From: a virus | Virus record (IMG/VR): IMGVR_UViG_3300022696_000137 | Span: 1 to 56,032 of that record | Length of the DNA: 56,032 nt | Strand: one strand, 5' to 3' | In this document: positions 950 through 56,032 of the stretch, in pieces | How the letters are laid out: each line of letters starts with the position of its first letter | Position numbering within the stretch: position 1 is the stretch's first letter | Position numbers and translations under genes: made by a program | The notes under the pieces: generated by a model | Seen by the model: only the letters and a program-made list of their open reading frames with translations | Database searches by the model: none | What the model was told of the DNA's origin: nothing

Positions 950-964
950 CTATCCTCCAAACTA

Positions 965-3108: not shown

Positions 3109-3110
3109 TA

Positions 3111-3251: not shown

Positions 3252-3262
3252 CAATTTCCCCT

Positions 3263-3526: not shown

Positions 3527-3543
3527 TATTTTCTCCTTTGTGT

Positions 3544-3572
3544 AATATAAAATTATGTCACTGTCTTGTCAA
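3544..3572 (-). promoter_or_regulatory. Sigma70-type early promoter for the 3.5 kb operon
   Basis: On the minus strand, TTGACA (3567-3572), a 17-nt spacer and TATATT (3544-3549) precede the FmdB-type gene by about 20 nt. The -35 box lies inside the last codons of the dNMP kinase gene. Confidence 0.75.
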
Positions 3573-4289: not shown

Positions 4290-4303
4290 TTTTAAACCTT
4301 TCT

Positions 4304-19435: not shown

Positions 19436-19807
19436 TTACCAATCACCACCCTCACAATATGTTTCTTTACCAACTTTTGTTTCGTAAACTCTAACTTTAA
19501 ATTTAAGTTCGGGTCTATCTTTTCTTAACTCTTTATAAATCCAATGAGTAATATTTTCTGCTGTTGGATTAATGTCATTTTCCTTAAAATAAGGAATGTC
19601 ATTAATCAACCTGTGATCCATTTTTTCTTTTAATTTCTTTACATTTCCAAAATCATAAAGAATACCGATTTCATCACATTGGTCTATTGTACCACGAACC
19701 CAAATTTCTATAAACCAGCTATGGCCGTGTAGTTCCGCACATTTACCCTTATAATTTTTCAAATAATGACTTGAATCTATTGTTGTTTCAGTATGAAGTG
19801 TAAGCAT
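19436..19807 (-). CDS. queD: 6-carboxy-5,6,7,8-tetrahydropterin synthase
   Basis: The 123-residue protein has the QueD pattern: SSHYLKNYKGKCAELHGHSW, with catalytic Cys23 and zinc ligands H14, H27, H29. DHRLIND and NPTAENITHWIY follow, then the C-terminal Glu motif VYETK. QueD makes carboxy-tetrahydropterin from dihydroneopterin triphosphate, the second step to preQ0. Its own promoter (19835-19863) lies just upstream with AAAGGAGAAAAGG before the ATG. Confidence 0.95.
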   Translation of the reverse strand: MLTLHTETTIDSSHYLKNYKGKCAELHGHSWFIEIWVRGTIDQCDEIGILYDFGNVKKLKEKMDHRLINDIPYFKENDINPTAENITHWIYKELRKDRPELKFKVRVYETKVGKETYCEGGDW

Positions 19808-20869: not shown

Positions 20870-21565
20870 CTAAACATTTCTTTTATTTTCAAATAAAAAT
20901 ATATGAGATCTTAAAGATATATTCCACCCCTCTCTCATAATATGATCCCAATGCTTATTTATCTTTGTATGAAGTGTGTTTGAATCAATGCCCACAGGCT
21001 GAACATAAACCCTTTCTACTGGAATATTCCATTCTTCAATTTTCCATTTAATTATATCTAAATCTCTTTCATCATTAAAAAGGAACTTAACAATATATTG
21101 AACTTTACCATTTTCAAGTTCAAAATTTTGTAAGTGTGGAATTAACTTTGGTGTTAAATTGGTAGGCTTATCTTGTGTGAAATTAATTTTTGGTGAAATA
21201 TTAAAAATTAAATTCCGGGAATTTTCTTTTAAATAAAGAAGGTCTTCCTCAGGAACAATAACAGTTCCGTTAGTTTCTATTTCAATTGGCATATAACCAA
21301 GTTTCCCAATAATATTTTTTATTGAAGAAACATTTCGAGGCAATAAAGGTTCTCCACCAGTAAATACAATAGCATTAACTTTTAATGCTTGTTTAATCAC
21401 ATCTGTCAACTCAAAATCATAAACCTCAATCGGATCTTTCCAAGTGTACGGTGTATCACATTCAGTACAAGATAAATTACAATTTGGAAATCTTACAAAT
21501 AAACACTGTCTGCCTTGATATTTTCCTTCACCTTGAATACTGGTAAAAAGTTCAGTAATCTTCAT
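20870..21565 (-). CDS. queE: 7-carboxy-7-deazaguanine synthase (radical SAM)
   Basis: The 231-residue protein begins KITELFTSIQGEGKYQGRQC, as in QueE. The cluster motif C29-N-L-S-C33-T-E-C36 (CxxxCxxC) is followed by VFTGGEPLL (SAM binding) and IEIETNGT. QueE rearranges carboxy-tetrahydropterin into 7-carboxy-7-deazaguanine. It is the first gene of the block behind a strong promoter (21596-21624). The HEG3 gene follows. Confidence 0.94.
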   Translation of the reverse strand: MKITELFTSIQGEGKYQGRQCLFVRFPNCNLSCTECDTPYTWKDPIEVYDFELTDVIKQALKVNAIVFTGGEPLLPRNVSSIKNIIGKLGYMPIEIETNGTVIVPEEDLLYLKENSRNLIFNISPKINFTQDKPTNLTPKLIPHLQNFELENGKVQYIVKFLFNDERDLDIIKWKIEEWNIPVERVYVQPVGIDSNTLHTKINKHWDHIMREGWNISLRSHIFLFENKRNV

Positions 21566-23877: not shown

Positions 23878-24409
23878 TCCCCTTGTCTCCTGTAATAAAG
23901 TTTAAAACACCATTTTCGCTTAACAAATTAAGTTCAGAATCAAATATTTTTTGGTTTTTAGATGCCAAGAAAAATTTAAAATCTGTTTTTCTTGATTCTT
24001 GCTTTTTTTCCTCAACATATTTTCCACATTTCAAGAATTTAAAACCATTTACTTTATTTTCTTTTACATAATTTATATCATATCCTGTATAAATCATAAA
24101 ATTTAAATGCTTTAATTTTCTTAAAATATTTTTAGTAAATTTAATATTTTGGGGGTGAAGAGGATCTCCACCCTCAAAAACTATTTTATTTGTTCTATGT
24201 TTTTTGGAAACATCTTCAATTAATTTTGTAAATTCTTTTTCATTTATCAAATAAGAATTTTTATAATTAAAATCAGAAAATTGAGGATTATGACAACCCT
24301 TACATTTATGTTCACGTCCCATAATATAAACTATTATAGCTAAACTTTCATTATCCGCATAATCTAAAAAGGATGTACTAAACGGTAAAATTATTCTTAC
24401 TTTTTGCAC
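23870..24409 (-). CDS. nrdG: NrdG-like RNR-activating radical SAM protein, first cluster Cys replaced
   Basis: The 179-residue protein starts at a GTG (GGGA upstream). The expected NrdG motif is GC-x3-C-x2-C-x-N. Here it reads MGREHKCKGCHNP, with Arg32 (codon CGT) where Cys (TGT) is normal; C36 and C39 remain. VFEGGDPLHPQN fits the SAM-binding motif. NrdG generates the glycyl radical on NrdD using a [4Fe-4S] cluster held by three cysteines, so loss of one would normally inactivate it. It may be a sequencing error, a real mutation, or an atypical cluster. Confidence 0.8.
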   Translation of the reverse strand: MQKVRIILPFSTSFLDYADNESLAIIVYIMGREHKCKGCHNPQFSDFNYKNSYLINEKEFTKLIEDVSKKHRTNKIVFEGGDPLHPQNIKFTKNILRKLKHLNFMIYTGYDINYVKENKVNGFKFLKCGKYVEEKKQESRKTDFKFFLASKNQKIFDSELNLLSENGVLNFITGDKGNV

Positions 24410-33534: not shown

Positions 33535-36500
33535 TTAATAACTTAATAATTTTTTCATCTTAGATTTTTTAAGATTAATTTGATTCCATCCTAATACATC
33601 AAAAAATCTTTGAATTATTGTTAAAAATGATTTTTCAAACTGAAGTTCATAATCAATTTCAAAAATATCTTCAAACTCTTTAGGATATTGATTAATAAAT
33701 GCTATTACATTTTGTTTTAAGTAATTATTTTCTTTGATAAATACAAACTTTAACTTTGTACCATTGTTTACAGGAACTAAACCATCAATCCCCTTTTTAG
33801 CAATTGTATAATTGTAATTAATTGCTGCTCGAGCATGAATTGGAACCCCCTTCTTATACTTTAACCCATCTTTTAAATATGTTTTAATTGGATCCGCATA
33901 TTTTGTATATTCAGATATACCACGTGGCGATGAAATTTCAGAAATATCTTGTTTTTTAAATTCTTTTTTAACTTCTTTTAATTTTGTGATTACTTCTTCC
34001 TTATCTTTTGTATCAAAAATCAAATCAACAATGTTTGGAAGTATTTTTCTATTATATGCAGGAGTACTTGTTTTTATAATTTCAATTCCCGTAACCTTCA
34101 TTTTAGGTTTATCATAAATTTTACCTTCATTATCCTTGACTCTTGTCACATATTTTTTCTTTGCAAGGATAATCATGTCTGTGATGACTTTCTCTTTTTC
34201 AAAAACAATCAACTGCGGAACACCAAATTTTTCTGCATAAAGATTCAATATATCCTGAAAGAATGGCTTTAAAAAATCATCATTGAAATGATTAATCCAT
34301 TCCACAAATTCATCATCTGTAACAAAATTCAATCCAAGTTTTTGGAATGTTTCATCGAAACAGAAATAATTAGAGTTGTGAACTAAAATATCATTAGCAA
34401 AAAAGTTATGGTTATCTTCAACTTCAATATCATAAACATCCATTTCTTTAATACCCAAATCTTCAATTTCAAACTCTTTTGTAGTAAACATTTTTAATCC
34501 TCCAAAAAACTTAAACATTTTTTTTACAACAATTTCATCTCCTGGTAAAATATCTTTAGGAGAAACATCTATATAAAAACCATTTCTTTTTATAATAATC
34601 GAATGATCTTCAGTGCAAACAACTTCTTTATCTTTAAATTTTATTTTATACATTCTCTTTTTGACTTTATGTTTTGAAATATAGTTAACTTTTCCGAAAT
34701 TTTCTTCTAATTTTGTGGGTAAATTATAAGAGGTTTTTTTAGTTTTCCCAGACAACACCTTTAAATTACATTGATTGTGTAAACTAACAATTTCATTTTC
34801 TTCTTCATTAGAACCATAAACATCTTTATACTTATTAAACAAATCTTCAATAGTTTTATCGCCTTCATTTGTAATTAAAATAGAATCACCAGCAACACTG
34901 TCTGTATCTATTAATATACAAGGATTATTTTTAAGTTTATTTTTTTCATCTCTAATAGGAAAATATGTTTTATTCTGCCAAAAATAATTCTTAAAATAAT
35001 CATTTGTGGTTTCTGACAAATATTTAATTAAATGCTGGCTTGACAAAGTAATAGTCATAGCACAATAATTATTATAAAGATGAAAATGTTTATTACCTAA
35101 AACTCCATACATACTGTTGATTAAAATCTTTCTAATTTGCTGTTGTCTATCATAATATGATTGAAGGTCTTTATCGCCGTTATCTCTGGCTTCATACATT
35201 AATTTTTTCATATCTTTACGTTCATTAAAAATCTTACTAACAATTTTAGATAAAACACTAACTTTATCTTTCCTATAATATATACCACCAACCTTTAATT
35301 TTTCCCCACCAGTAAGATTCCAAGTTTTATATTCTGAAACAGGACAAGAATAAAGATTCTTTTTCTCTTCTTCTGAAGGATTAAGAACGAGTGTATCGGG
35401 ACCAATATTGTATTGCATAATCATGTGGGGGTACATACTGGCGACATCTAATGAAACCACTTTCTGATACATACCTGGAATTGCCATCACAAAAGCTCCG
35501 GGCAATTTTTCCTTGTGTGATTTTTCTCTATCTGGAAGAACCATTCCTTGTTCATGAAGAAATTTTAAAATATATCCCGTCAAAACACTCATTTGAGAAA
35601 AAACTGCTTGGAATGGAACAAGAGCTTGATAAGCAATATTGACCACAAGTTCAATAAATCTAAGCTTATTTTCAAGCTTTTCAACAAGCAATACATCTTG
35701 AACATTATAATTAACAAAATTATGCCAATCATCTCGCCACGCTGTGTTTATTGTACCTTCATAATCCAGCTTTCCTTCTCCGATTTCTAACGTTCCTATT
35801 GCTTGTAAAGAATAACTGTCTCTTGGAGAATATGTGAATTTTTTATATAATGCTCTTAAATCGAGTATTGCTACACCACCAAATCTAACATCACCTTTAT
35901 AAGTTATTTTATCATCATTAACTGGTGAAAAACATTTTTTTATACCAAGATTTTCTTTTCTGTTTTGTAAATATAAAAAATCAAATTCATCTGAATACCA
36001 TCCTGTAAAAATGTCAACCTTCTCTTTACGACTAATTTCTATAGCCTTTTCAATTAATTTTTTTTCGTCCGGAATCCAATGATATTCCTTTACAAAACTT
36101 TCTCCTGAAACCTTAGTTTCATCAAATTCACGAAGACCTAAAGTTACTAATCTTCCTGATTGAGAAAATTTCATTGTAATAAGATTAACGGGCCATTTTG
36201 CTTCTTCTGGTTTAGGAAACTCATTTGGTGACTCAACTTCAATATCAAGAAAACATATATTAATATCTTTCATATTTGGAGTAAGTGTTTTACCAAGATA
36301 TCTTTGTTGAAGATATTTAACTTCTATTGGAATATCTGTTTCGCAAGTTTTAATTCCTGTTTCCCTAAAAGCTTTCATTCTATCAATATCCTCGGCTATT
36401 TTAGGAACTACAGGACTTTCATAAATATCTGTTATTTCTGATTTTTTAGTTTTATCAGGAATATAAAAAACCAATTCTGGTTTTTCTTCTATCTTTACTG

Positions 36501-36570
36501 TTTTACCATTATTTATTTCCCAAAGCTGAATTTTGTTTGACTTTTGATTGTAGTAAATACGTTTGAACAT
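33535..36570 (-). CDS. 43: Family-B DNA polymerase (T4 gp43-like) with mini-intein
   Basis: The frame has 1011 codons; without the intein the enzyme is about 836 residues. The exonuclease domain has FLDIEVES, YSDEFDFLY and YNVQDVLLVEK. Polymerase motif A is VVSLDVASMYPHM, motif B KILINSMYGVLGN, and motif C IDTDS, which is split by the intein at 558-732 (34375-34899). The tail ends KKSKMKKLLSY, a hydrophobic peptide that may bind the clamp. A frameshifted small gene lies upstream. AAAGGAC precedes the ATG. Confidence 0.95.
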   Translation of the reverse strand: MFKRIYYNQKSNKIQLWEINNGKTVKIEEKPELVFYIPDKTKKSEITDIYESPVVPKIAEDIDRMKAFRETGIKTCETDIPIEVKYLQQRYLGKTLTPNMKDINICFLDIEVESPNEFPKPEEAKWPVNLITMKFSQSGRLVTLGLREFDETKVSGESFVKEYHWIPDEKKLIEKAIEISRKEKVDIFTGWYSDEFDFLYLQNRKENLGIKKCFSPVNDDKITYKGDVRFGGVAILDLRALYKKFTYSPRDSYSLQAIGTLEIGEGKLDYEGTINTAWRDDWHNFVNYNVQDVLLVEKLENKLRFIELVVNIAYQALVPFQAVFSQMSVLTGYILKFLHEQGMVLPDREKSHKEKLPGAFVMAIPGMYQKVVSLDVASMYPHMIMQYNIGPDTLVLNPSEEEKKNLYSCPVSEYKTWNLTGGEKLKVGGIYYRKDKVSVLSKIVSKIFNERKDMKKLMYEARDNGDKDLQSYYDRQQQIRKILINSMYGVLGNKHFHLYNNYCAMTITLSSQHLIKYLSETTNDYFKNYFWQNKTYFPIRDEKNKLKNNPCILIDTDSVAGDSILITNEGDKTIEDLFNKYKDVYGSNEEENEIVSLHNQCNLKVLSGKTKKTSYNLPTKLEENFGKVNYISKHKVKKRMYKIKFKDKEVVCTEDHSIIIKRNGFYIDVSPKDILPGDEIVVKKMFKFFGGLKMFTTKEFEIEDLGIKEMDVYDIEVEDNHNFFANDILVHNSNYFCFDETFQKLGLNFVTDDEFVEWINHFNDDFLKPFFQDILNLYAEKFGVPQLIVFEKEKVITDMIILAKKKYVTRVKDNEGKIYDKPKMKVTGIEIIKTSTPAYNRKILPNIVDLIFDTKDKEEVITKLKEVKKEFKKQDISEISSPRGISEYTKYADPIKTYLKDGLKYKKGVPIHARAAINYNYTIAKKGIDGLVPVNNGTKLKFVFIKENNYLKQNVIAFINQYPKEFEDIFEIDYELQFEKSFLTIIQRFFDVLGWNQINLKKSKMKKLLSY
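34375..34899 (-). other. Mini-intein in polymerase motif C
   Basis: Residues 558-732 (175 aa) start at the Ser of DTDS (block A: SVAGDSILI), have block B VCTEDHSIII (T-x-x-H, about 653-656), block F DVYDIEVEDNHNFF, and end LVHN before Ser733. Splicing would restore IDTD-SNYF, the catalytic motif. There is no homing endonuclease (LAGLIDADG or HNH) between blocks B and F, so it is splicing-only. The site is the one used by known family-B 'pol-c' inteins. Confidence 0.9.
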
Positions 36571-36594
36571 GTACTGTCCTTTCTGGCTTCGTCA

Positions 36595-36820
36595 TTACTC
36601 GTATGACTTACCGATTAATAAGTTAACAACTGTCTCTTCTTTTTTACCTCTGTAACCTTGGCGGACAAATAGGTATTGTTTTTGGTCTGAATCAAATTGA
36701 TATTATCTTTATATTAGGGAAACTTCTGATCATAGTTTTAATGTAGATAGCTACACCACCAGCGAAAAATATGTGTGCTGGTTTTACAATTATCGCTATT
36801 TTCTTATCAAATTTATTCAT
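36595..36820 (-). pseudogene. Frameshifted small gene upstream of the polymerase
   Basis: From the ATG at 36820 (AAGGGG leader) the frame reads MNKFDKKIAIIVKPAHIFF and stops at 36692. In the +1 frame a protein-like stretch FDSDQKQYLFVRQGYRGKK continues from 36696 to a TAA at 36595, ending VVNLLIGKSYE. Together they give a single 74-residue protein after removal of one nt. It follows an early promoter (36852-36880) and lies just before the polymerase. A sequence error, decay or frameshifting would all fit. The remaining bases between this gene and the DHH gene (36821-36937) hold only the promoter and operator-like repeat. Confidence 0.55.
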
Positions 36821-36834
36821 AAAAACCCCTTCAA

Positions 36835-36867
36835 TGTGAAATCGCTATAATAATATTCAATTTCACA
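36835..36867. repeat. Palindrome TGTGAAAT-N17-ATTTCACA over the polymerase-operon promoter
   Basis: Arms 36835-36842 and 36860-36867 are perfect inverted 8-mers spanning the -10 box and start site. A related pair, TGTGAAAT-N9-GTTTCACA, lies upstream of hsp20 (42687-42711). It may be an operator. Confidence 0.35.
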
Positions 36868-36880
36868 ATATAATTGTCAA
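36852..36880 (-). promoter_or_regulatory. Early promoter of the polymerase operon
   Basis: On the minus strand, TTGACA (36875-36880), 17 nt, AATATT (36852-36857), about 30 nt upstream of the frameshifted small gene. Confidence 0.75.
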
Positions 36881-36937
36881 ATTCTGAAAGTCGACGCCAA
36901 CATATTGAAGAGAAAATTTAAGACATACAACATGCTG

Positions 36938-37837
36938 TTATTTACGCCATTGAGGATAATTTTCGTAAATGTAATCCTCTAATACCTGGAAAGACTCTTT
37001 AAGTTTTTCTATGTTTCCTTCTCGATTGTTGAAGGCTGCCGCCTTGCCATGACCACCACCAAGATTAAGGTCATTAATAATCTTACCCAAATTTACATCA
37101 TCCGATTTTGATCTTACACTAATGTGTTTACTTCTTGCATTCTGAACCAATACAAGTTCATAACCATCTTTGTAAAGTAAGCGGTCTGCTATATCGTTAA
37201 GGAATTGTGTTACAGGAACGAAACAAGCATTGATTTTTTCGAACTCGAAAACTAATAACTTATCATAGGTTTCAAAAAACTCTTTTCTACGTTGACGAAA
37301 GAAACTTAATTCCTGAGGAGTAAATCTAACATCACCATTCATAAAACGCATCCTAAATTTGGTGTCGCCCATCTTCCAAAATAATTCATTGATGAAACGA
37401 CTCTTATGCCAATTATGAATCCAAAGATCATAATCGTTGGCGTATCTAACTAAATCATTTAAATGATTTAGATTAATATTATATGTTTCTTCAACCCAAT
37501 TTTTTGTTAAAAGTGCACCACAAACCCCATCAATGGAATAAATGTTTTTTTCAGGATTAAATATTTTCTTAGACCCTTGATGATGATCTAAAATAATAAT
37601 TTTATCAGTACTATCTAAAGTTTCAACTTGCTTAGGAAAGCAATCAGTAACAAAAATAGCATCGTAATCTTCTAAATTAGTTTTTTCAATTATAGAATCA
37701 ACATTTGTAAAGGTACAACTAATACATTTAATATTTTTAAAATAATTTGCTAAAACTATTGAGCATGTAACACCATCAAAATCCCAATGGCTTATACTTA
37801 ATATTCTACTATCCCGTGTTAATTTTTTTGGGTTCAT
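36938..37837 (-). CDS. DHH-family phosphoesterase
   Basis: The 299-residue protein shows DHH motifs: SISHWDFDGVTCSIV (motif I), VTDCFP, IILDHHQ (the DHH triad), and the DHHA1 domain with LGGGHGKAAAFNN. Such enzymes are RecJ-type or NrnA-type, hydrolysing single-stranded DNA, short RNA or cyclic dinucleotides. The 'GGGHGKAA' loop fits the NrnA or cyclic-di-nucleotide phosphodiesterase group. The exact substrate is unknown; options include nanoRNA turnover and destruction of a defence signal. An early promoter (37868-37896) precedes it. Confidence 0.8.
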   Translation of the reverse strand: MNPKKLTRDSRILSISHWDFDGVTCSIVLANYFKNIKCISCTFTNVDSIIEKTNLEDYDAIFVTDCFPKQVETLDSTDKIIILDHHQGSKKIFNPEKNIYSIDGVCGALLTKNWVEETYNINLNHLNDLVRYANDYDLWIHNWHKSRFINELFWKMGDTKFRMRFMNGDVRFTPQELSFFRQRRKEFFETYDKLLVFEFEKINACFVPVTQFLNDIADRLLYKDGYELVLVQNARSKHISVRSKSDDVNLGKIINDLNLGGGHGKAAAFNNREGNIEKLKESFQVLEDYIYENYPQWRK

Positions 37838-37867
37838 TTAATCCTCTCTTTTATAAATCATATTTTC

Positions 37868-37896
37868 AATATTCAATTTTATAATATAATTGTCAA
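37868..37896 (-). promoter_or_regulatory. Early promoter of the DHH gene
   Basis: On the minus strand, TTGACA (37891-37896), 17 nt, AATATT (37868-37873). The -35 box holds the TGA of the predicted unshifted small gene upstream. Confidence 0.75.
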
Positions 37897-37917
37897 ATTG
37901 ACTCTTCAAAATTATCT

Positions 37918-38103
37918 TCAAAATATTTTTTTTGCAACATACCATTGATCTTTATGATTTTTAGGGTTTCTTGCAACCATTCCCATATCTGTCTCAGGAT
38001 CATCGACATTACTAACACTAATATTTGTTAAATCTTCTCCTTTAATATAAGGTCTCATCTCTGCATAATTTTTTCTTCGGTATTTTTTAAATGCGATTTC
38101 CAT
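37918..38103 (-). CDS. Small conserved-type phage protein, probably frameshifted at an A8 run
   Basis: The 61-residue frame (MEIAFKKYRRKNYAEMRPYIKG...) has GEDLTNISVSNVDDPETDMGMVARNPKNHKDQWYV, a pattern I recall as a common small phage protein of unknown role. After QWYVA it meets a run of eight A (37926-37933) and stops. If the run had seven A, the frame would continue KKYFEDNFEESI to a TGA at 37893, the usual ending of the family. So the gene is probably one nucleotide off, or is read by slippage. Confidence 0.65.
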   Translation of the reverse strand: MEIAFKKYRRKNYAEMRPYIKGEDLTNISVSNVDDPETDMGMVARNPKNHKDQWYVAKKIF

Positions 38104-38114
38104 TTTTTTTCTCC

Positions 38115-39320
38115 TTAAAAGTATTTTGAAAAATTATTAATAAATCTTGGTGAATCTAACCACCGCCCATCTCTGTCAAGCATATTATATTGATCTGTTA
38201 TTGTCTTATTAAACAAATTAGGCTCCGAATATTTATTTAAAATCAATTCATCTAATTCCTCAACAGTTACCTTTTCATTAACTTTAACCAAATTATTATC
38301 ATAGGGGCTTGGCATACCATTAGTAAATGTTGTACCAATACTAACACACCCTGCGGCACAATACTCAATATGTTTAATATCTGATTTACTATAATTAAAA
38401 TAATTTTGTACAAGTGGGGATATGCCAAAATCTGGTTTAAACTTCAAAATTGGAAGATGATACTGAAAGCTATTTAACCAATTTATAACTAATATCTTAT
38501 TCTTTATTTTTTCAAAAAACCAAGGCAGCCCTCCCATACAACAAAATTCTATTTTTTTATCCACAACACTTTTAATCACCCAATCAGTCCATTCACTATC
38601 CCAATCGCCTTTTAATCTACGAGCATTACAATAATGAGTAGGCGAGCCTGTATAAATAACACGAGGTTTTTCTAATTTCTTTTTAATCAATGGTCTTTTT
38701 CCATTACCTTGCCAAAAATATTTTGGTATAGCATTAGGAATAACTACGACATTTGATTTTACACCGGCATTATTAACTAAATAATCTTTTAGAAATTTAG
38801 TTGAGACACAAACAGTATCCATCATATTCATAATTTCTATAGTAGATTTTTTAGTTTGTGAATCAATTTTGGATGATGCTAAATTATAATCTGGTATTCT
38901 TTCCCCATTATTTGGACCATCCCAAATAAAGTCATCAATATCATACACCATTTTAAATTTATATCTTTTTTGAAGATCTTTAAATTTTTTAATTTGGGGA
39001 ATTTGAGACGGCGACATTGTTCTTTGAAAAAACATTGATCGGCATCTTATAAGAAAATCGTGTTGATAAATGAAAAACGGCGCAATAAATGGAACAACCT
39101 TCCCATCTTTACCAGCAACAGCATTTAAATAAGTCATAGGAAATATGTTTCTAATATGACCACAACCTGTACTATCAGAAACATAAGAAATAAGTAGATT
39201 TTTCCGAACCTTTTCAATATTAGATTTTATTTTTATTGTTCCAGGGTAAGATTGATTAGGATTATCTAATTGATAATCAAATTTTGTTAAATCACTTGTT
39301 GGTAAATTTTTTTCACTCAT
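38115..39320 (-). CDS. Group-1 (GT4-like) glycosyltransferase
   Basis: The ATG at 39320 follows AAAGGG and is preferred over an in-frame TTG at 39335. The protein is about 401 residues. VYDIDDFIWDGPNNGERIPDY and NVVVIPNAIPKYFW suggest the inter-domain region, and GISPLVQNYFNYSKSDIKHIEYCAAGCV matches the C-terminal GT-B motif 'K..EY.a.G.P'. Many T4-like phages encode such a protein near replication genes. Target unknown: DNA bases or host glycans. Confidence 0.78.
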   Translation of the reverse strand: MSEKNLPTSDLTKFDYQLDNPNQSYPGTIKIKSNIEKVRKNLLISYVSDSTGCGHIRNIFPMTYLNAVAGKDGKVVPFIAPFFIYQHDFLIRCRSMFFQRTMSPSQIPQIKKFKDLQKRYKFKMVYDIDDFIWDGPNNGERIPDYNLASSKIDSQTKKSTIEIMNMMDTVCVSTKFLKDYLVNNAGVKSNVVVIPNAIPKYFWQGNGKRPLIKKKLEKPRVIYTGSPTHYCNARRLKGDWDSEWTDWVIKSVVDKKIEFCCMGGLPWFFEKIKNKILVINWLNSFQYHLPILKFKPDFGISPLVQNYFNYSKSDIKHIEYCAAGCVSIGTTFTNGMPSPYDNNLVKVNEKVTVEELDELILNKYSEPNLFNKTITDQYNMLDRDGRWLDSPRFINNFSKYF

Positions 39321-39350
39321 TTTAAACCCTTTCAAATTATTTGTTAAATT

Positions 39351-47270: not shown

Positions 47271-48080
47271 ATGGTTGATGAATTGACGTTTAGTACTTCT
47301 AATAGTATTCCGATCCCGATAGAAAATTTATATAAAGGGTGTTCTTGTTTTTTGGTTGTTGGTGGACCAAGCCTAAAAACTTTTGATTTAAAAAAATTAG
47401 ATGGGTTAATTTCAATGGGAGTAAATAATTCCCCGGTAATTTACAAACCAAAACTTTGGACTTTCGTAGATGATCCTAATAAATTTCTTTTAAGTATTTG
47501 GAAAAATCCTTATATTATGAAATTTTCTCCTTTTCATAAAAAAGAGAAAAGATTATTTAATTCGGCCCGATGGGAAGATGTTCCTCTTAAAACTAAAGAA
47601 TGTCCTAATGTTATCTTTTATCATAGAAATAATCATTTTCAACCGGCTAAATGGTTAAACGAAAAAACAGTTAATTGGGGTAATAGTAAAGAAAATGGTG
47701 GTACAAGAAGTGTGTTTCTGGCTGCTATAAAAATTCTTTATTTATTAGGTTTTAGGAAAGTTTTTCTTGTTGGGTGTGATTTTAGGATGAAAGAGAATGA
47801 ACAAAATTATGCTTGGAAACAAGATAGAACAAGTGGATCTATAAAAAATAATAATAAAACTTATCAAGTTTTGAATGAAAGATTTAATATTTTACGACCT
47901 TTATTTGAAGAAAAGAATTTCTTTATTTTTAATTGTACGCCTAATTCTGGATTAAAATCTTTTCCTTTTATTGATTTTTCTGATGCTATAGAAATAGCAA
48001 AAAGTGATTTTGAAATTTTAGGAGAAAAAACTGAAGGTTTGTATGAACGTACCGCGCTTTTGAAAAAGGATAAAAAATGA
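47271..48080 (+). CDS. DUF115/MptE-like glycosyltransferase-associated protein
   Basis: The 269-residue protein has GCSCFLVVGGPSLKTFDLKKLDG and MGVNNSPVIYKPKLWTFVDD, the pattern of DUF115/MptE-like Rossmann proteins (nucleotide-binding VGGGPS loop, then 'D..w..D'). LLGFRKVFLVGCDFRM follows. In bacteria such proteins work in motility or surface-sugar glycosylation. It is first in a tightly overlapping cluster of glycan genes (47.3-54.1 kb). Confidence 0.65.
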   Translation: MVDELTFSTSNSIPIPIENLYKGCSCFLVVGGPSLKTFDLKKLDGLISMGVNNSPVIYKPKLWTFVDDPNKFLLSIWKNPYIMKFSPFHKKEKRLFNSARWEDVPLKTKECPNVIFYHRNNHFQPAKWLNEKTVNWGNSKENGGTRSVFLAAIKILYLLGFRKVFLVGCDFRMKENEQNYAWKQDRTSGSIKNNNKTYQVLNERFNILRPLFEEKNFFIFNCTPNSGLKSFPFIDFSDAIEIAKSDFEILGEKTEGLYERTALLKKDKK

Positions 48081-48883
48081 ATGGTATAATTTTTTATAAT
48101 ATTGGTTTTAAGATGTTAGTTAGATTATCGGTATCATTATATACCCTACGCCGTAATTATTCTGGTGATGTTACAGTAATTTGTGATGAGGATTCTTTTA
48201 ATAAGTGTAAAAAAATAACTGATTTATTTGATGTAAATATACTTAAAGTAAAAAATGATTTGACAGGTAAAAATATTCCTTTCCTTAATAAATGTCTTCT
48301 TCATAAATTTTCTCCTTATGATAATACTATTTTTCTTGATTGTGACACTTTAATTCTTAAAAATTTTGATGAATTATTTGACTATTTTAAAAATTATGAA
48401 TTTTTTACTACAAAATTTTCAAGTTGGACTATTAATAAAATAATATCTAAACGAATAAAAGCTTGGACTCCTTATTTTCCAAATTTAATTAAACCAGCAT
48501 TAAATTTTGGTTTTGCCATTAATACAGGAGTTTTTGGTTTTAGAAAAGATAGTAAATTAATGAATGATTGGTTTTCTTATGCTGTTAAAGGAAAGGATTT
48601 GTTTATTCCAGATGAAACGAGTTGTCAATTAATACTTCATAAATATAATCATAAACTTGTTAGTCATAATTATAATACGAGTTGTAAATTTGATAAAATA
48701 ACAGATGATACTCGTATAATTCATTTTCATGGAAGAAAACATTGTCGTATTCAAAATGGTGAATTTCTTTTTAATTCAAAACTTTGGTATAAGGAATTTG
48801 ATAAAATTAGTTTTTGGTCAAGTGTTGAAGATGTGTTTAAATATGATAGAATGTTAAAGAATAATATTGAAAAAAGGATTTGA
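48077..48883 (+). CDS. GT8-like glycosyltransferase
   Basis: The 268-residue protein has TVICDEDSFNKC near residue 35 and TIFLDCDTLILKNFDELF near residue 90, the DxD donor site of GT-A enzymes. FGFAINTGVFGFRKDSKLMNDW is a typical GT8 acceptor loop, and RIIHFHGRKH carries the C-terminal His pair. It overlaps both neighbours by 4 nt or less. Confidence 0.75.
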   Translation: MNGIIFYNIGFKMLVRLSVSLYTLRRNYSGDVTVICDEDSFNKCKKITDLFDVNILKVKNDLTGKNIPFLNKCLLHKFSPYDNTIFLDCDTLILKNFDELFDYFKNYEFFTTKFSSWTINKIISKRIKAWTPYFPNLIKPALNFGFAINTGVFGFRKDSKLMNDWFSYAVKGKDLFIPDETSCQLILHKYNHKLVSHNYNTSCKFDKITDDTRIIHFHGRKHCRIQNGEFLFNSKLWYKEFDKISFWSSVEDVFKYDRMLKNNIEKRI

Positions 48884-48885
48884 TA

Positions 48886-50289
48886 ATGAATTTTTCTATT
48901 GTTACTGGATGTACACCAGATTATTTAAAAAAATTAAAATGGACTCTCCCAACATGGAATAAAAAACCACAATTTAAAAATAAACCTCTAATAATTTTTT
49001 ATAGTGGATTAACAAAAAAACATTTTAAATTTGTAGATAAGTATTTTAAAAATGTTACTTTAGTTGATTGGAAAATGTCAAAAGCAGAAAATGTTAGAGA
49101 ATTAATGTTGTCTTCTTTTGTTTTGGGGTCTTTTCATGTAAATACAGAATATTTTATTAAACTTGATGCAGACACTTTTTTTACAAATGATAAAGATGTT
49201 TTTGATGAAGATGATTTTAAATACGATATTGTTTCTCATAGATGGTCATATACAAAGCCGGGTTGGTGGATTGATGTTCTGGAAAATTATTTTAATGGTA
49301 AAGAATCTTCCATAGTAAATAGAAATAATAATAATAGAAAAACAGAAAATAGAATACAAAGTATTTGTTGTTTACATAAAACTAATTTTGTAAAGTTTTT
49401 GGCAACAAAATTTAAGGATAAATTACCAGTTCCATCACATGATACTGTGGTTTGGTTTTTTGCTGATAGAATGAAAGAACATTCTTGGAAAGGAAAAAAT
49501 TTAAAACGGTTTGGTGTAAATCACAATTCAAATTTTAGGAAACTTAGAGAAGAAATATGTTCTAATTTTTTAACTTTTAAAAATGATTTTTTAATTGATT
49601 CTTTATTAAATAATATTCAATTGGAATTAACTTCTTATTGTCAATTAAAGTGTTTTAATTGTGATAGAAATTGTGGTGTTGTCAATAAACAAGAATATTT
49701 ACCAATTTCAAAGCTTTGGAATTTTGTTGAAGCCAGTATAATTAAAAAGAAAAAATGGAATAGGATTGATTTGATTGGTGGAGAACCAACTTATTATCCA
49801 CATTTTAAAGAGATGTTTGATATAATAAAGATTTATAAAAATAAATATCCTAAGACGGTTATTAGATTTAGTACTAATGGATTAGGAGAATTTGTAAAAA
49901 ATAAATTAAAAGAAATTCCAGATTGGGTTGTTATTAGAAATAGTAATAAAAAAAGTAAAAATAATAAATTTGATTCTTATAATTCTGCTCCTATTGACTT
50001 TGGTGAAAAATACCCCAAAGCATGTTCTATTCCTTGGAGGTGTGGAATTGCTCTGAATAAAAGAGGATATTTCCTTTGCGGTGCCGGTGCATCTGTTGAT
50101 AAGGTTTTTAATTTAAATTCTGCTATAAATTCGTTTGATTATCTTACAATTGAAAATCTTTTGGTTCAAATACCTAAATTGTGTAAATATTGTGGACATA
50201 GTAATTGTAAATCTAAAGAGTTGGTTTGTGTTCCTAAAATTAGTAAAAGTTGGAAAAAAGCTCTTTCAGAATTTAATAATGGGGGATGA
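48886..50289 (+). CDS. Glycosyltransferase-radical SAM fusion protein
   Basis: The ATG at 48886 is preferred over a TTG at 48880. The protein has about 467 residues in two parts. Residues 1-230 resemble a GT-A domain (FSIVTGCTPDYLKKLKWTLP and YFIKLDADTFF). Residues 240-467 are radical SAM: ELTSYCQLKCFNCDRNCG (CxxxCxxC), DLIGGEPTYY, and Cys-rich C terminus CGAGASVDK, CKYCGHSNC, possibly SPASM-like. A single chain combining sugar transfer and radical chemistry is unusual. Confidence 0.8.
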   Translation: MNFSIVTGCTPDYLKKLKWTLPTWNKKPQFKNKPLIIFYSGLTKKHFKFVDKYFKNVTLVDWKMSKAENVRELMLSSFVLGSFHVNTEYFIKLDADTFFTNDKDVFDEDDFKYDIVSHRWSYTKPGWWIDVLENYFNGKESSIVNRNNNNRKTENRIQSICCLHKTNFVKFLATKFKDKLPVPSHDTVVWFFADRMKEHSWKGKNLKRFGVNHNSNFRKLREEICSNFLTFKNDFLIDSLLNNIQLELTSYCQLKCFNCDRNCGVVNKQEYLPISKLWNFVEASIIKKKKWNRIDLIGGEPTYYPHFKEMFDIIKIYKNKYPKTVIRFSTNGLGEFVKNKLKEIPDWVVIRNSNKKSKNNKFDSYNSAPIDFGEKYPKACSIPWRCGIALNKRGYFLCGAGASVDKVFNLNSAINSFDYLTIENLLVQIPKLCKYCGHSNCKSKELVCVPKISKSWKKALSEFNNGG

Positions 50290-51033
50290 ATGAATATTGA
50301 ATTATTTTCTTCAGTTTATAATTTTCAAAAAAGATGGTGTTGGCATTTATCATCTTTGGTAGAACAAACACATAAAATTAAAATGAGATATAATGTAGCT
50401 TATGTTAAGAATAATGGGAATCCAAAAACTGAAGATGTTATGGATTATTTTAGAAAAAAATTTGGAATTGTGTTTAATCCAGTTAAATTTGAATCTAAAG
50501 AAGATATGCTCTATAGAGGACTTGTTAGAAATAAACAAATAAAAAAATCTAAAGGGTCTTGGTTCTTTTTTGTTGATTGTGATATAGTTTATTCAAAGAA
50601 TTTTTTTAAAGAGATGACTAAATATCTTAATGATAAAGTTGATAAAATTATATCCGCACCTCAATTTAGTTATACAAATATAGAAAATACACAAAAAGTT
50701 TTTTCAGAATTTTCAAATTTTTATATTCCTGATGTTTATGAAAAGTCTTTGTGTTTGGGTATTAATAAAACAAAATCTTTTAATATAGCTCCTGGAGGAA
50801 TGCAAATTGTAAGGAAACAATTGGTTATGGAAAAAGCTAATGGTAGATATGTGAATCCAAAACGTCATGGTGATAGGCCATTAGGAAATATAGGAACAAG
50901 AAGTGATATAAAATTTAGAAGAGCAATTGATGGAAGTTTTAAAGGATCAAAAATAATTAAACTTCCCACACAAATTCATTTGGAACATTATAGAAGTGTA
51001 GATGAAAAATTTAACCCAGAAGAACAAAAATGA
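50290..51033 (+). CDS. GT-A glycosyltransferase
   Basis: The 247-residue protein starts NIELFSSVYNFQKRWCWHLSS and has SWFFFVDCDIVYSKNFF, the DxD motif. It continues with FNIAPGGMQIVRKQL and a basic, aromatic end with HLEHYRSVDEKF. It abuts the previous gene (50289/50290) and overlaps the next by 4 nt. Donor and acceptor unknown. Confidence 0.7.
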   Translation: MNIELFSSVYNFQKRWCWHLSSLVEQTHKIKMRYNVAYVKNNGNPKTEDVMDYFRKKFGIVFNPVKFESKEDMLYRGLVRNKQIKKSKGSWFFFVDCDIVYSKNFFKEMTKYLNDKVDKIISAPQFSYTNIENTQKVFSEFSNFYIPDVYEKSLCLGINKTKSFNIAPGGMQIVRKQLVMEKANGRYVNPKRHGDRPLGNIGTRSDIKFRRAIDGSFKGSKIIKLPTQIHLEHYRSVDEKFNPEEQK

Positions 51034-51977
51034 ATAATAAAATACTTTATTTTTTAACAGAAGCAGATAAATTGGTGGCCGGGAAATATGTAAATCCTGT
51101 TACTTGTGAAATTGATTTGACTACGGTTTGTCAAAATAATTGTTATTTTTGTATTAATAAAGAGTCTAATAATGATAGTCATTCTATCTTAAATCTTAAT
51201 TTATTAAATAGATTATTGTCTGAATTAAAGATTATTGGTGTAAAATCTATAACGTTTACGGGGGGTGGTGAGCCTTTACTCCACCCCCATTTTGAAGAAT
51301 GTGTTAGACTTGTCAAGTCTTATGATTTTAAGCTTGGTTTGATTACAAATGGAGTTTTATTGAATAAATGTATTAATTTATCTTCATCTTTTGATTTTAT
51401 TAGAATTAGTTTATATGGTATAAACGAAATTACTTATGGGGAAAAAACAGGAAAACCGAAAAATTTTGGTTTAGTATATAAAAATGTAAAGGTTTTGGTA
51501 AATACTTTAAACCCTAAAACTAAACCTACAATTGGTTTTAGTTATGTTGTTCCAAAAGATGAACAAAATATAGCCGAAGCTAAACAATTTGCTAAAGAAT
51601 TAAAAGTAGATTATATTCAATTTAAACCTATTCTTGGGAATGGGGATGATGAAATTGAAGAAATTAATTTGGATGAAAAGTCTATGATAACTAATAGATT
51701 TACACCTAAAAATGATATGCCGTGTAAGTTGGCTGGGTTGATTGGAATTGTTAGCGCAGATGGAAATGTATATTATTGTTGCATGAAGAGAGGAGATGAT
51801 AAATATTTGTTAGGTAATTTAAAATATACTAATTTTTCAAAACTTTGGAAGAAGAGGTTAGAAATAGTTCCGGATTTTTTAAAATGTTCTTCTTGTAGAT
51901 ATATGAATTATGTAAAGGGTTTTGAAAATATAAAGGAATCTGATAAACATTTTCTTAAACATAAGGATTTTTTGTGA
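51030..51977 (+). CDS. Radical SAM protein with SPASM-type C-terminal cluster
   Basis: The 315-residue protein has EIDLTTVCQNNCYFCIN (CxxxCxxC near residue 34), ITFTGGGEPLLHPHF, LITNGVLL, and a C-terminal Cys set: MPCKLAGL, YYCCMKRGDDKY, and LKCSSCRYMNY. This SPASM-like layout fits enzymes modifying peptides or sugars. It overlaps neighbouring genes by 4 nt on each side. Confidence 0.82.
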   Translation: MNNKILYFLTEADKLVAGKYVNPVTCEIDLTTVCQNNCYFCINKESNNDSHSILNLNLLNRLLSELKIIGVKSITFTGGGEPLLHPHFEECVRLVKSYDFKLGLITNGVLLNKCINLSSSFDFIRISLYGINEITYGEKTGKPKNFGLVYKNVKVLVNTLNPKTKPTIGFSYVVPKDEQNIAEAKQFAKELKVDYIQFKPILGNGDDEIEEINLDEKSMITNRFTPKNDMPCKLAGLIGIVSADGNVYYCCMKRGDDKYLLGNLKYTNFSKLWKKRLEIVPDFLKCSSCRYMNYVKGFENIKESDKHFLKHKDFL

Positions 51978-52624
51978 TTTTAAGGGGTAATTCAAGAAGA
52001 GTTTTGTTTGATCAATTAAAAGGGGATCCTTATTTTTTGAAAAGAATTCCTCAAGGTTTGGTTAATAATTTTATTGATATAGGGTCAAATGTTGGTTTTA
52101 TTTCAATGTTTATAAGATTTTTACACCCATATTCCAATATTCTTTCTGTGGAACCACATCCAGTTATTTATAATCAATTAAATGAAAATGTAAAAAATTT
52201 GAAGATTAATAGTTTAAATTGTGCTTTAGGTGACGGCTCGGATTTTTATTTGTTTTCAGAGAGAAAAATGGATTTGTGTAATCTTTTTTCTTCTGAAAAA
52301 AAGAATTCCAATCTTACTGTAAAAAGTATGACACTTAATAATATTTTTAAGTTTTCAAATTTTGATTTAGATGATGTGTATTTAAAAATTGATTGTGAGG
52401 GTGCTGAAACTATTTTGATGTATAATGAAGAATCAGAAAATATTTTAAGGAAATGTAAATTTGTTTCTATGGAATTACATAATAAAGATAAAAATAAAGG
52501 TACTATTGAAGAATTAATTGAGTGGTTTCAAAATTTATTAATGAAAACTCATACTATACATATTAAAAAGAATAGTGGTTTAGCAGCTAATGTTTTATCT
52601 ATAAGGAAAGATATTTATTTATGA
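51974..52624 (+). CDS. FkbM-family methyltransferase
   Basis: The 216-residue protein starts at a GTG overlapping the TGA (GTGA). NFIDIGSNVGFISMFI is the SAM-binding Gly loop, SVEPHP the acidic ribose-binding loop, and VYLKIDCEGAETILM the FkbM signature. FkbM enzymes O-methylate sugars or related groups. It fits the glycan cluster. Confidence 0.85.
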   Translation: MILRGNSRRVLFDQLKGDPYFLKRIPQGLVNNFIDIGSNVGFISMFIRFLHPYSNILSVEPHPVIYNQLNENVKNLKINSLNCALGDGSDFYLFSERKMDLCNLFSSEKKNSNLTVKSMTLNNIFKFSNFDLDDVYLKIDCEGAETILMYNEESENILRKCKFVSMELHNKDKNKGTIEELIEWFQNLLMKTHTIHIKKNSGLAANVLSIRKDIYL

Positions 52625-53181
52625 ACATAAATAGATTAATGCCTAAATTTATTCAAGCTATAGCTCAAGGATTAAAATATCATGATAAATTAGACACTTA
52701 TGTAGAGCTTGGTGTTTATAAAGGAAGAACATTTTCGAGAGTGGCTCCATTAACACAAAAAGCTTTTGCTGTAGATATTAGTGATAAATTTTTTGATAGA
52801 ATTTCGGGTATAGAAAATGCGGAATTAATTAATACTTCAACTACAATTTTTTTAAATGAAAGTATTAAATTAAAAAGAAAATTTGATTTAATTTTTATTG
52901 ATGCTAATCATAAATTTGAAAATAGTTTTTCGGATTTTTTATTATCTTTAAAAGTTATTAAAGATGGTGGAGTTATTATTCTTCATGATACATATCCAGC
53001 TTCTGATAAAATGATTTCTAAAAATGGTAATGTTAAGTGTGGAACTACTTGGAAAACTGCTTTAAAAATAAAAAATGAATTTTTGGATGAGTGTGAAATT
53101 GCTACACTCCCATTTTATCATGGTATAACAGTTGTAAGAAAAGTTTGTAGAAATGTTCAACTTGATTGGAAGGAGAATTGA
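52621..53181 (+). CDS. Class I SAM-dependent methyltransferase
   Basis: The 186-residue protein has YVELGVYKGRTF (SAM loop), AFAVDIS, DLIFIDANHKFENSFSDFLLSL, and GGVIILHDTYPA. This matches the Methyltransf_24 group, often in surface-sugar or cephalosporin-type methylation clusters. It overlaps the FkbM gene by 4 nt. Confidence 0.78.
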   Translation: MNINRLMPKFIQAIAQGLKYHDKLDTYVELGVYKGRTFSRVAPLTQKAFAVDISDKFFDRISGIENAELINTSTTIFLNESIKLKRKFDLIFIDANHKFENSFSDFLLSLKVIKDGGVIILHDTYPASDKMISKNGNVKCGTTWKTALKIKNEFLDECEIATLPFYHGITVVRKVCRNVQLDWKEN

Positions 53182-53182
53182 A

Positions 53183-54118
53183 ATGATTAGGAAAAGCAAA
53201 ATTTGGGGAGAGACTCAGTTTTTATTTTCAAAAAATAATGTAGAAATACATAGAATTGAAATTAAAAGGGGTGGTTATTGTAGTAAACATTTTCATAATT
53301 TTAAGTTTAATATGTTTTTTGTTGAAACGGGTGTTCTTGATGTTAAAGTAAAAGAAAATGATTCTAATATAATAAATTCTACTATTCTTTATGGTGGTGA
53401 TATTACAACAGTCGAACCCAGAAAACTTCACATGTTTTTAGCTAAAGAAGATACAATAGCGTATGAAATTTATTGGGTTGAATTGAATGGTGAAGATATT
53501 GTTAGAGAATCCGTTGGTGGGATGCATAAATTTGAAGATGATAAATATACAGGTAGATATTTTAGGAGACGAATAAAAACTATAAATAAGCAAGAAGCTA
53601 ATTATGCTTATCAAATGAACTTTTTCTTTACACCTAAAATGGTTTATGATATTGGTTGTGGTTTAGGAGCTTATCTGGAACAATTTAAATGTTTAGGTTG
53701 TGAGGTTCTTGGATTTGATAAATATTTGGACCGGGCAAAGGCATATTGTTCACCTAATATTATTAATAACATAATTAAAGCAGATATTTTAAATGATAAT
53801 AAAATTGAAAAGAAATCAGATTTAACTTTGTGTATAGAATTAGGGGAACATATTACTCCATTAAAATCTGCTGATTTTGTTAGAAACATTTGTAATTTAT
53901 CAAATAAAGATATAGTTTTTGTTGCTGAGGGTCCCGGAAAGATTGGGAATGGTCATATAAATTGTAGAGAAAAAGAATATTGGGTTGCTTTATTTTCAAG
54001 TTTTGGTTTTCCAAGAAATAGAAAGAAAGAATTAGAGTTGAAGAATATTTTTGAATCCATTGGAGATGAACTTAATTTAAATAAAAATTTAATTTTATTT
54101 AGTAAAAGAGAGGTTTAA
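53183..54118 (+). CDS. Cupin-methyltransferase fusion protein
   Basis: The ATG at 53183 (GGAGAATTGAA before it) is preferred to an upstream in-frame start at 53153. The product has about 311 residues. Residues 1-120 form a cupin (GGYCSKHFHNFKFNMFFVETG and VEPRKLHMFLAKED) with His ligands, as in sugar-phosphate isomerase-like domains. Residues 145-311 form a methyltransferase (MVYDIGCGLGAYLEQF, VLGFDKYLDRA, TLCIELGEHI). It may act on nucleotide sugars. Confidence 0.75.
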   Translation: MIRKSKIWGETQFLFSKNNVEIHRIEIKRGGYCSKHFHNFKFNMFFVETGVLDVKVKENDSNIINSTILYGGDITTVEPRKLHMFLAKEDTIAYEIYWVELNGEDIVRESVGGMHKFEDDKYTGRYFRRRIKTINKQEANYAYQMNFFFTPKMVYDIGCGLGAYLEQFKCLGCEVLGFDKYLDRAKAYCSPNIINNIIKADILNDNKIEKKSDLTLCIELGEHITPLKSADFVRNICNLSNKDIVFVAEGPGKIGNGHINCREKEYWVALFSSFGFPRNRKKELELKNIFESIGDELNLNKNLILFSKREV

Positions 54119-54119
54119 A

Positions 54120-54845
54120 ATGGCTGAGGTTGCATTAAAAATTAATGCCGGTTCTGGTTTTGATGATGGTGATTCTATTCAACTTTTTAATAATAGACGA
54201 ATTTTATCTGTAAATGCACAAAATATATGCTTTAAAGATATTAAATTTAATTTTCATGGATTAAGAGATGTTGATAGTTTAGTATATAAAATTCTGAATA
54301 GCTTTTTTCAATATAAATTTGAGAGAAAAAGTAAAGATATTATTGAACGGATTGAAATTGACTCTAATTTTTCGGAGTTTTTCGGTTCACCACAAATAAG
54401 TGTAGAAGAAGTTTTAAAAACAAAATTAAAGAAAAAGAATCATTTGGTTTTTGGTGTTCCAGGTAAAGAAATTTGGTTTGGTGGAAAATGGCTGGATAAT
54501 GAAAAAAATATTAATAATATTTGGGATGATATAGGAAATTATACGGGTAAAAAGAAAGAAGATTTTAAGAAATTTCCGTTTTCTGAACATGAAAGAAAAG
54601 TGCATTTTATTTCCTCTTTAGAAGAAGATGTAACAGATGAAGAGGTTCTTGAGTATCAAAACCCCGGGGTCAATGATAAAAAAGAAATAGTTTTTAAAAG
54701 ATGTTATAAAATTCCTTGGTTTGAATCTTTAAAAGTTTCTCCCAAAAATATTAAGCGTCTTAGAGATAAAAATAAATTTGTAGATTTGAGAGATGATTTT
54801 GGTTTTAATAAACAAGAATTTATTAATAAAATGAGATATAACTAA
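54120..54845 (+). CDS. Hypothetical protein, probably virion-associated
   Basis: The 241-residue protein starts AEVALKINAGSGFDDGDSIQLFNNRRI, an opening I recall in large-phage virion proteins. The rest is charged and mixed, with KIPWFESLKVSPKNIKRLRDK near the end. It overlaps the next gene by one nt (TAATG). Function unknown. Confidence 0.55.
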   Translation: MAEVALKINAGSGFDDGDSIQLFNNRRILSVNAQNICFKDIKFNFHGLRDVDSLVYKILNSFFQYKFERKSKDIIERIEIDSNFSEFFGSPQISVEEVLKTKLKKKNHLVFGVPGKEIWFGGKWLDNEKNINNIWDDIGNYTGKKKEDFKKFPFSEHERKVHFISSLEEDVTDEEVLEYQNPGVNDKKEIVFKRCYKIPWFESLKVSPKNIKRLRDKNKFVDLRDDFGFNKQEFINKMRYN

Positions 54846-56032
54846 TGGCTACAGTAACTAAAAGTATTGGTACAGATTCAAGAGATTATAGTACCATAAC
54901 ATTATGGGAAGCAGATTTAGATAATGGTTCTGTTTACAATTCTGGAGATGACGCTGTTGGTGAGTGTTATAATGATTCCGTTTTTGATGAAGAAATTAAT
55001 TTTAGTAATGGAACAACAGTTGGTTTAAATTCTATTAAGTTAACTGTTCCAGAAGCTGAAAGACACGACGGTACTGAAGGAACAGGTGCGAGAGTTGTGC
55101 CAACTTCTACATCCAATAATTCTATTTTAGATTTTGATAATAATACTATTCCTAAAACGGTTGAATGGTTAGAATTGGATTGTAATGGTCTTGATTATAA
55201 TTATGGTATTTATAATGGAAGTACATTTACTACAGAAATAATATTACGGAATTTAATTTTACATAATCTTAAAAATACAACTGGTTCTGGTAGTGTTTAT
55301 GGGGTGTATGCTAATAATAGAGCCGTTCAAATAATGAATTGTTTGATTTATGATATTTCCAACAATGAATTTACTGGTGGTGATATTTGGGGAATAAATA
55401 ATGATAATGATAGCTCTTTTGCCGCAGTATTAAATTGTACAGTTTGGTTATTGACGTCTGTACGATCTGACCAGTCCACGTTTGGAATAGAAGTTACAAA
55501 TAATGGAACTGGTTATGGTGTTCAAAATTGTTTAGTTACACAATTAAGTGGTACCGCGACGGAAAAACTTTGTATTGTTAGTGCGGCTAATCCAACTTAT
55601 GATTATAATGGTGTTTCTGATGATTCTGCACCAGGAGCAAATAGTTTACATAATTTAGTTGATACGGACCTTTTTGTTTCTACAGTTCTTGGGTCTGTAG
55701 ATTTACACTTAAAAGAATCGGCGTCTGTAAAAGGTCAAGGAGATGATTTAGGTACTACACCGACTAATGTTAATATAGATATTGATGGTTTTGATAGAGA
55801 TTCTGCTGGTGTTTCGTGGGATATGGGTGCCGATCAAACTGAAGGGGCGGATTCAAGTAGTTCTTCAGAATCAAGTGATAGTTCAAGTTCGGAATCAAGC
55901 TCTGATAGTTCAAGTTCCGAATCACAAGAAGAGAGTTCCCAAAGTTCTGAATCTTCAGAATCAAGCGAAAGTTCAAGCAGTTCTCAGTCTGAAGAACCTA
56001 TTTCTTGGGTGATTGTTTCTCAGTCTGGTGGT
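54845..56032 (+). CDS. Beta-helix-like virion protein with Ser-rich tract (partial)
   Basis: The frame starts at the ATG at 54845 and stays open for 396 codons to the window edge. Residues about 110-260 look like short beta-helix coils (LRNLILHNLKN, IMNCLIYDIS, VLNCTVWLLTS, VQNCLVTQLS). DIDGFDRDSAGVSWDMGADQ is the end signature of choice-of-anchor Q-type beta-helix proteins. A Ser/Glu/Asp-rich tract (about residues 336-385) precedes a new segment, ISWVIVSQSGG. It may be a tail-fibre, spike or surface adhesin. Confidence 0.75.
   Translation, partial: MATVTKSIGTDSRDYSTITLWEADLDNGSVYNSGDDAVGECYNDSVFDEEINFSNGTTVGLNSIKLTVPEAERHDGTEGTGARVVPTSTSNNSILDFDNNTIPKTVEWLELDCNGLDYNYGIYNGSTFTTEIILRNLILHNLKNTTGSGSVYGVYANNRAVQIMNCLIYDISNNEFTGGDIWGINNDNDSSFAAVLNCTVWLLTSVRSDQSTFGIEVTNNGTGYGVQNCLVTQLSGTATEKLCIVSAANPTYDYNGVSDDSAPGANSLHNLVDTDLFVSTVLGSVDLHLKESASVKGQGDDLGTTPTNVNIDIDGFDRDSAGVSWDMGADQTEGADSSSSSESSDSSSSESSSDSSSSESQEESSQSSESSESSESSSSSQSEEPISWVIVSQSGG

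Follow-up and report, generated by a model that had tools for sequence, protein, structure and literature searches.

A group of eight genes in a T4-like metagenomic phage forms one recurring module. Judged from sequence, we consider it reasonably likely that this module is dedicated to the O-glycosylation of serine-rich tracts in the phage's own virion proteins. The window, that is, the whole stretch of DNA analysed, is the entire 56,032-bp virus record. The sequences show an operon-like layout, core genes that recur and are fused to one another, an association with Ser tracts, and serine retained as an amino acid.

Genome setting and gene content of the cluster

The window is a T4-like phage fragment that contains genes for gp46-like, family B DNA polymerase, UvsW-like and anaerobic ribonucleotide reductase proteins. 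Early genes run leftward to ~42.5 kb and late genes run rightward beyond that point. The cluster follows UvsW on the late strand and, in T4-like relatives, is located upstream of the portal, protease, scaffold and capsid genes. The 3' limit of the window falls just past the serine-rich stretch of a tail-type gene.

Several features outside the cluster were also noted. A TGT/DpdA-like protein (PF01702; 16077-17513, minus strand) and QueC-, FolE-, QueD- and QueE-like ORFs, assigned by eye (14448-15215, 17515-18477, 19436-19807 and 20870-21565), probably constitute a 7-deazaguanine DNA modification set. The family B DNA polymerase (33535-36570, minus strand) is split by an intein-type splicing domain (PF14890). 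The anaerobic ribonucleotide reductase NrdD with an NrdG-like gene (21844-24409, minus strand) suggests an anaerobic or facultative host. More glycosyltransferase, sulfotransferase and radical SAM genes are found on the early strand (6345-7079, 10132-10788 and 12867-13730, minus strand); the protein at 38115-39335, also on the minus strand, has no Pfam match and is kept beside gp47/46 in one relative.

The original prediction described an overlapping cluster of glycosyltransferase (GT), radical SAM and methyltransferase genes, and the ORF layout confirmed that it is real. Eight co-directional ORFs with ends abutting or overlapping by 4 bp encode four GT candidates, two radical SAM domains, an FkbM methyltransferase and two other methyltransferases (Table 1), in agreement with that prediction, and the block recurs in other contigs. 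Relatives and ribosome-binding sites indicate that the GT-radical SAM gene probably starts at ATG 48886 rather than TTG 48880. By the same kind of evidence, the cupin-methyltransferase gene probably starts at ATG 53183, behind GGAAGGAG, rather than at 53153.

Table 1 Genes of the cluster and its neighbours in the window, and motif-bearing Ser-rich proteins of related contigs.
Feature	Coordinates	Strand	Basis
Maf/DUF115-like (PF01973) glycosyltransferase, candidate initiator on serine	47271..48080	+	PF01973 below cut-off, CstII profile match
GT8-like glycosyltransferase, conserved DxD	48077..48883	+	Glyco_transf_8 below cut-off; DxD aligned in A3
GT-like domain + radical SAM domain fusion	48886..50289	+	Motifs, family matches
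GT2-family glycosyltransferase	50290..51033	+	PF00535 above cut-off
Radical SAM-SPASM enzyme, probably sugar-modifying	51030..51977	+	PF04055, SPASM, PDB relatives
FkbM-family methyltransferase	51974..52624	+	PF05050, TIGR01444
Methyltransf_24-family methyltransferase	52621..53181	+	PF13578
Cupin + methyltransferase fusion	53183..54118	+	Cupin and methyltransferase (weak) matches, relatives
Partner gene of tail-type protein	54120..54845	+	Homologues likewise placed in L006-L011
Tail-type protein, Ser/Glu-rich C-terminal tract, proposed acceptor	54845..56032	+	Truncated by contig end
Motif-bearing Ser-rich protein, L004/G001	33990-39074		
Motif-bearing Ser-rich protein, L005/G002	2-895		
Motif-bearing Ser-rich protein, L021/G003	2-5350		
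Motif-bearing Ser-rich protein, L019/G004	176602-179313		

The 47271 protein matched PF01973 (MptE-like, Maf_flag10 family) at 25.3 bits (E = 1.5e-5), below the curated cut-off of 34.6; this model was matched by 14 of the 18 members of its family at E ≤ 0.01. The top PDB match of the family profile was the sialyltransferase CstII (E = 0.005), and Foldseek placed CstII/CstI among its top matches, at non-significant E-values of at least 0.04. Maf enzymes O-glycosylate Ser/Thr residues of flagellin, and the Maf PF01973 domain resembles CstII (PMC11339370). The three agreeing tests (PF01973, PDB profile and Foldseek) point, weakly, to a relationship of the 47271 family with Maf and CstII. With 269 residues and one domain, the 47271 protein lacks the three-domain Maf architecture.

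The 48077 protein scored 17.8 bits against Glyco_transf_8 (PF01501; E = 0.0027), below the cut-off of 24.3, and is therefore named GT8-like only. DxD-type motifs are kept in the GT8-like, GT-radical SAM and GT2 proteins, the last of which matched PF00535 at 29.1 bits (cut-off 23.3). The 469-residue fusion protein consists of a GT-like part at residues ~1-235 with an invariant DxD, and a radical SAM domain at residues ~245-340 characterized by CX3CX2C, GGEP and additional conserved Cys. Its PF04055 match is slightly below the cut-off in the window and above it in L004. A PDB profile search with its GT domain gave no meaningful match, and its AlphaFold model is of low confidence (mean pLDDT 54).

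The CX3CX2C motif is present in both radical SAM proteins (CQLKCFNC in 48886, CQNNCYFC in 51030). The 51030 protein matched PF04055 (6.6e-14) and SPASM, both above the cut-off. Its closest PDB relatives are DesII (2e-7) and cytosylglucuronate decarboxylase, with BtrN also matched, and we predict that it is probably a sugar-modifying enzyme. A direct scan of the viral contigs for relatives of 51030 found none. The 51974 protein matched PF05050 (5e-11) and TIGR01444 (62.7 bits, cut-off 37.7), and the 52621 protein matched PF13578 (Methyltransf_24) above the cut-off (7e-12), with a counterpart of 47% identity at the same location in G004. In some relatives, the cupin of the 53183 gene is standalone or the two parts are separate genes.

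Recurrence of a core with variable decorating enzymes

IMG/VR scans with the GT-radical SAM and DUF115 proteins revealed six other contigs with the same block, whose core proteins show 44-61% identity, and a wider GT-domain profile added 13 contigs with a looser block. Thus 19 IMG/VR contigs besides the window, representing several types of phage, share the core set, which consists of the Maf/DUF115-like, GT8-like, unassigned GT-like domain, GT2 and cupin components. DUF115 and the GT8-like domain are fused into one protein in five of the six closest relatives. In G003 the GT domain is instead fused to GT2, and the radical SAM enzyme is a separate gene. The 13 wider-profile contigs, which include siphovirus-type contigs, contain GT8-GT fusions and a compact DUF115-cupin-GT-GT8 order. 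Fusions of a GT8-like and a DxD domain (L202 9119-10726, L203 9140-10732, L207 9095-11263, L209 9188-10666 and L106 4045-6006) are possible two-step transferases.

The decorating enzymes vary between contigs and include FkbM, Methyltransf_24, two kinds of radical SAM enzyme, Gfo/Idh-type oxidoreductase and sulfotransferases. A fixed core with interchangeable decorators is the pattern that would be expected of a glycan-building pathway. The original prediction was to fall if the homologues proved scattered and unrelated, and we found instead that the genes co-occur strongly. It had also stated that no phage pathway with this set was described. This is largely right because tblastn of the three core proteins tested (DUF115, GT8-like and GT-radical SAM) against 50,697 phage records gave no relatives, with the qualification that GT clusters with radical SAM cassettes have been reported beside pelagimyophage tail genes (PMC7029224). 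In the same search, the cupin-methyltransferase had a single weak match, in Caulobacter phage Cr30.

Serine-rich tracts beside the module

Fifteen of the 20 module contigs carry a Ser-tract ORF (21-38 Ser per 40 residues) within the same ~20 kb. In each of the seven closest contigs, read end to end, an ORF of at least 28 Ser per 40 residues lies 3-926 bp from the edge of the cluster, and five contigs have no Ser-rich ORF anywhere else. Selection of the 13 contigs via the GT domain was blind to serine, and eight of them contain a genuine Ser-rich ORF (at least 21 per 40). At the ORF level, 12 of 246 ORFs of these contigs have a tract in comparison to 3 of 1,388 background ORFs (Fisher p = 3e-8), a comparison between contigs that are not phylogenetically independent, in which p-values overstate independence because ORFs and contigs share ancestry. 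The former count omits L213, a duplicate of L214; the background comprises module-free contigs and the distal parts of module contigs.

Eight module-free contigs (454 kb), including a 254-kb contig of the same lineage (G011), contained no Ser tract in 593 ORFs. Although the T4-type portal of its lineage is missing from G006, this contig carries the module together with Ser-rich ORFs, and the association is also seen in siphovirus-type contigs. The core genes in L204, L206, L208, L209 and L213 are accompanied by no genuine Ser tract in the stretch read, which is short for L208; L213 begins within a tape-measure-like gene, and its near-duplicate L214 has the tract upstream. An apparent tract in L206 was rejected as antisense to other ORFs.

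A strict serine pattern was found in 33 stretches of the collection. Once the known module contigs are set aside, 25 contigs have this pattern, and DUF115 was found in none of them. G416, from the same lineage, lacks the cluster and has a Ser-rich protein of LamG type at the corresponding position. We therefore rejected the possibility that Ser-rich phage proteins always come with the module. Such proteins are more frequent than the module, so the module is a better pointer to a Ser tract than a Ser tract is to the module. All six Ser codons occur in the tracts, at frequencies near those of the background, which indicates that serine itself is maintained and that the tracts are not a DNA repeat.

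The tract of the tail-type protein in the window has 28 Ser per 40 residues; it is short, and the contig ends right after it. This protein shows 36-39% identity to module-free relatives, with the first ~330 residues clearly in common, and these relatives have non-serine C-terminal repeats where the window protein has its Ser tract. The 54120 gene stays next to the tail-type gene whether the module is present or absent. The tract follows a LamG-type domain in G001 and forms the C-terminal end of a structural-type protein in L211, L212 and L214. Four Ser-rich proteins beside the module contain the motif L[NK]NR[VI]M[MV]L[SN] after the tract (Table 1), a suggestive candidate for a recognition or assembly tag; module-free G416 and L163 have VGRG.YRG-type C-terminal tails instead.

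DUF115 relatives occur in Verrucomicrobia-labelled genomes but are rare, with 3 positive among the 388 genomes from this phylum. Of seven such loci, in bacteria or prophages, five have a Ser-rich ORF (at least 20 per 40) within 1 kb, as compared to 1 of 180 ORFs in the same-genome background, that one being the far end of the same gene. One of the five Ser-positive loci, L116, resembles a prophage. The verrucomicrobial DUF115 proteins (L107 9635-11587, L108 6487-8526) contain a long extra C-terminal region without a Pfam match; an oxygenase-like domain suspected there was unsupported by Pfam.

Proposed function and alternative explanations

We infer every catalytic step, the linkage to serine, the presence of the acceptor in the virion and the function of the glycan. 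Late in infection, the Maf/DUF115-like enzyme would place the first sugar on tract serines in the cytoplasm, and the GT8-like, DxD-domain and GT2 enzymes would lengthen the chain. The cupin, radical SAM enzymes and methyltransferases may make or cap unusual sugars, and in relatives a sulfotransferase or oxidoreductase may be among the decorators. The resulting virion segment would be glycan-coated and bottlebrush-like, with a possible binding or shielding role.

The main alternative, which we regard as unlikely but to be taken seriously, is that the encoded enzymes alter polysaccharide on the host surface (O-antigen or capsule), for instance to block superinfection, and that the cluster is tail-adjacent since that slot is hypervariable. 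It has a precedent in the pelagimyophages, T4-like phages with a hypervariable host-recognition region in which GT and radical SAM cassettes lie by the tail fibres and were interpreted as O-chain modification; the available part of that report gives no serine-tract association (PMC7029224). The G416 Ser-rich protein without a cluster in the same slot fits this explanation, as does the frequency of FkbM, GT2 and WbuC-like cupin families (the last a weak match here) in surface-polysaccharide loci. However, family searches found no flippase, polymerase or membrane-anchored transferase among the eight genes, and host-surface remodeling does not predict the Ser-tract link, which is seen also in bacteria and siphovirus-type contigs. 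The original prediction named both a decorated glycan on the virion and modification of the host surface. The former is supported and can be sharpened to a likely acceptor, a Ser tract on structural-type proteins whose genes lie within ~1 kb of the cluster in all seven closest contigs, and the latter is less favoured.

That the module and the tracts are unrelated cargo gathered in a variable tail region, with the tract serving only as a flexible linker, seems improbable to us. Ser-rich proteins without the module do exist, as do core genes without a tract (L204, L206, L208 and L209), but tracts in 15 of 20 module contigs and none of the eight module-free ones, the ORF-level difference (12/246 versus 3/1,388) and the association in bacterial loci, where a tail slot is mostly absent, all argue for a connection. 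We give little credence to the notion that the radical SAM enzymes alter the Ser-rich protein chain itself, as in peptide maturation, with the GTs acting later or elsewhere. Although the SPASM-type models matched include peptide maturases and an anaerobic sulfatase maturase, the solved structures that best match 51030 belong to DesII and cytosylglucuronate decarboxylase, both of which act on sugars, and several relatives have the GT domain without the radical SAM part. Phage glycosyltransferases often act on DNA, and a preQ0/DpdA-like set is present in this phage. Glycosylation of modified DNA bases by the cluster is nonetheless scarcely credible, given its late-strand location among structural genes, the Ser-tract association, the many decorating enzymes and the lack of any tie between the module and the early DNA-modification genes.

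Glycosylation of Ser tracts can be compared with known systems. Gram-positive serine-rich repeat glycoprotein loci (Fap1, GspB) have an acceptor gene beside dedicated, sequentially acting glycosyltransferases (PMC5207161). The phage cluster likewise has a Ser-rich candidate acceptor gene adjoining dedicated glycosyltransferases, in seven of the seven closest contigs and 15 of 20 overall. It differs in its Maf-like proposed initiator, its radical SAM, FkbM and cupin decorators and its structural-gene neighbours. Pfam, PHROGs and NCBIfam searches revealed no GtfA/GtfB (Gtf1/Gtf2) pair among the eight cluster proteins, and the cluster and adjoining genes scanned contain no accessory Sec export or cell-wall anchor. 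The cluster thus seems to operate as serine-rich repeat glycosylation loci do, but it is not a member of their family, as neither the Gtf1/2 pair nor accessory Sec was detected. The likeness to Maf flagellin glycosyltransferases (PF01973; PMC11339370) would lie in a related initiator family, a CstII-like catalytic domain and Ser/Thr O-glycosylation of a structural protein. The window protein is without the Maf N- and C-terminal domains, its family is often fused to a GT8-like domain, and the proposed acceptor in the phage is a Ser tract. Mycobacteriophage virions carry glycans on the C-termini of capsid and tail-tube subunits (Freeman 2023, as cited in PMC12619734); compared by description only, that system is not described, in the part available, as having a Maf-like, radical SAM and FkbM set with long Ser tracts. 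Literature searches for Ser-rich glycosylated phage proteins returned nothing relevant among the papers available.

More tentatively, the module may represent a mobile, phage-borne mucin-like coating, in which Maf-like-initiated O-glycans on Ser tracts carry unusual sugars built by radical SAM enzymes. The module and its Ser-tract acceptors would have travelled as a unit between myoviruses and siphovirus-type phages, with verrucomicrobial relatives, and all of this would be independent of the serine-rich repeat pathway of Gram-positive bacteria.

The Ser tracts offer a concrete acceptor for phage glycosyltransferase clusters, which are usually read as host-antigen modifiers, and the question of the target becomes testable through co-expression of a single protein and a single cluster. 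If the proposal is true, phages of uncultured hosts heavily O-glycosylate their structural proteins by a route parallel to that of the bacterial serine-rich repeat adhesins. The radical SAM enzymes might then be at work on the sugar chain, and new sugar chemistry would be available from the module.
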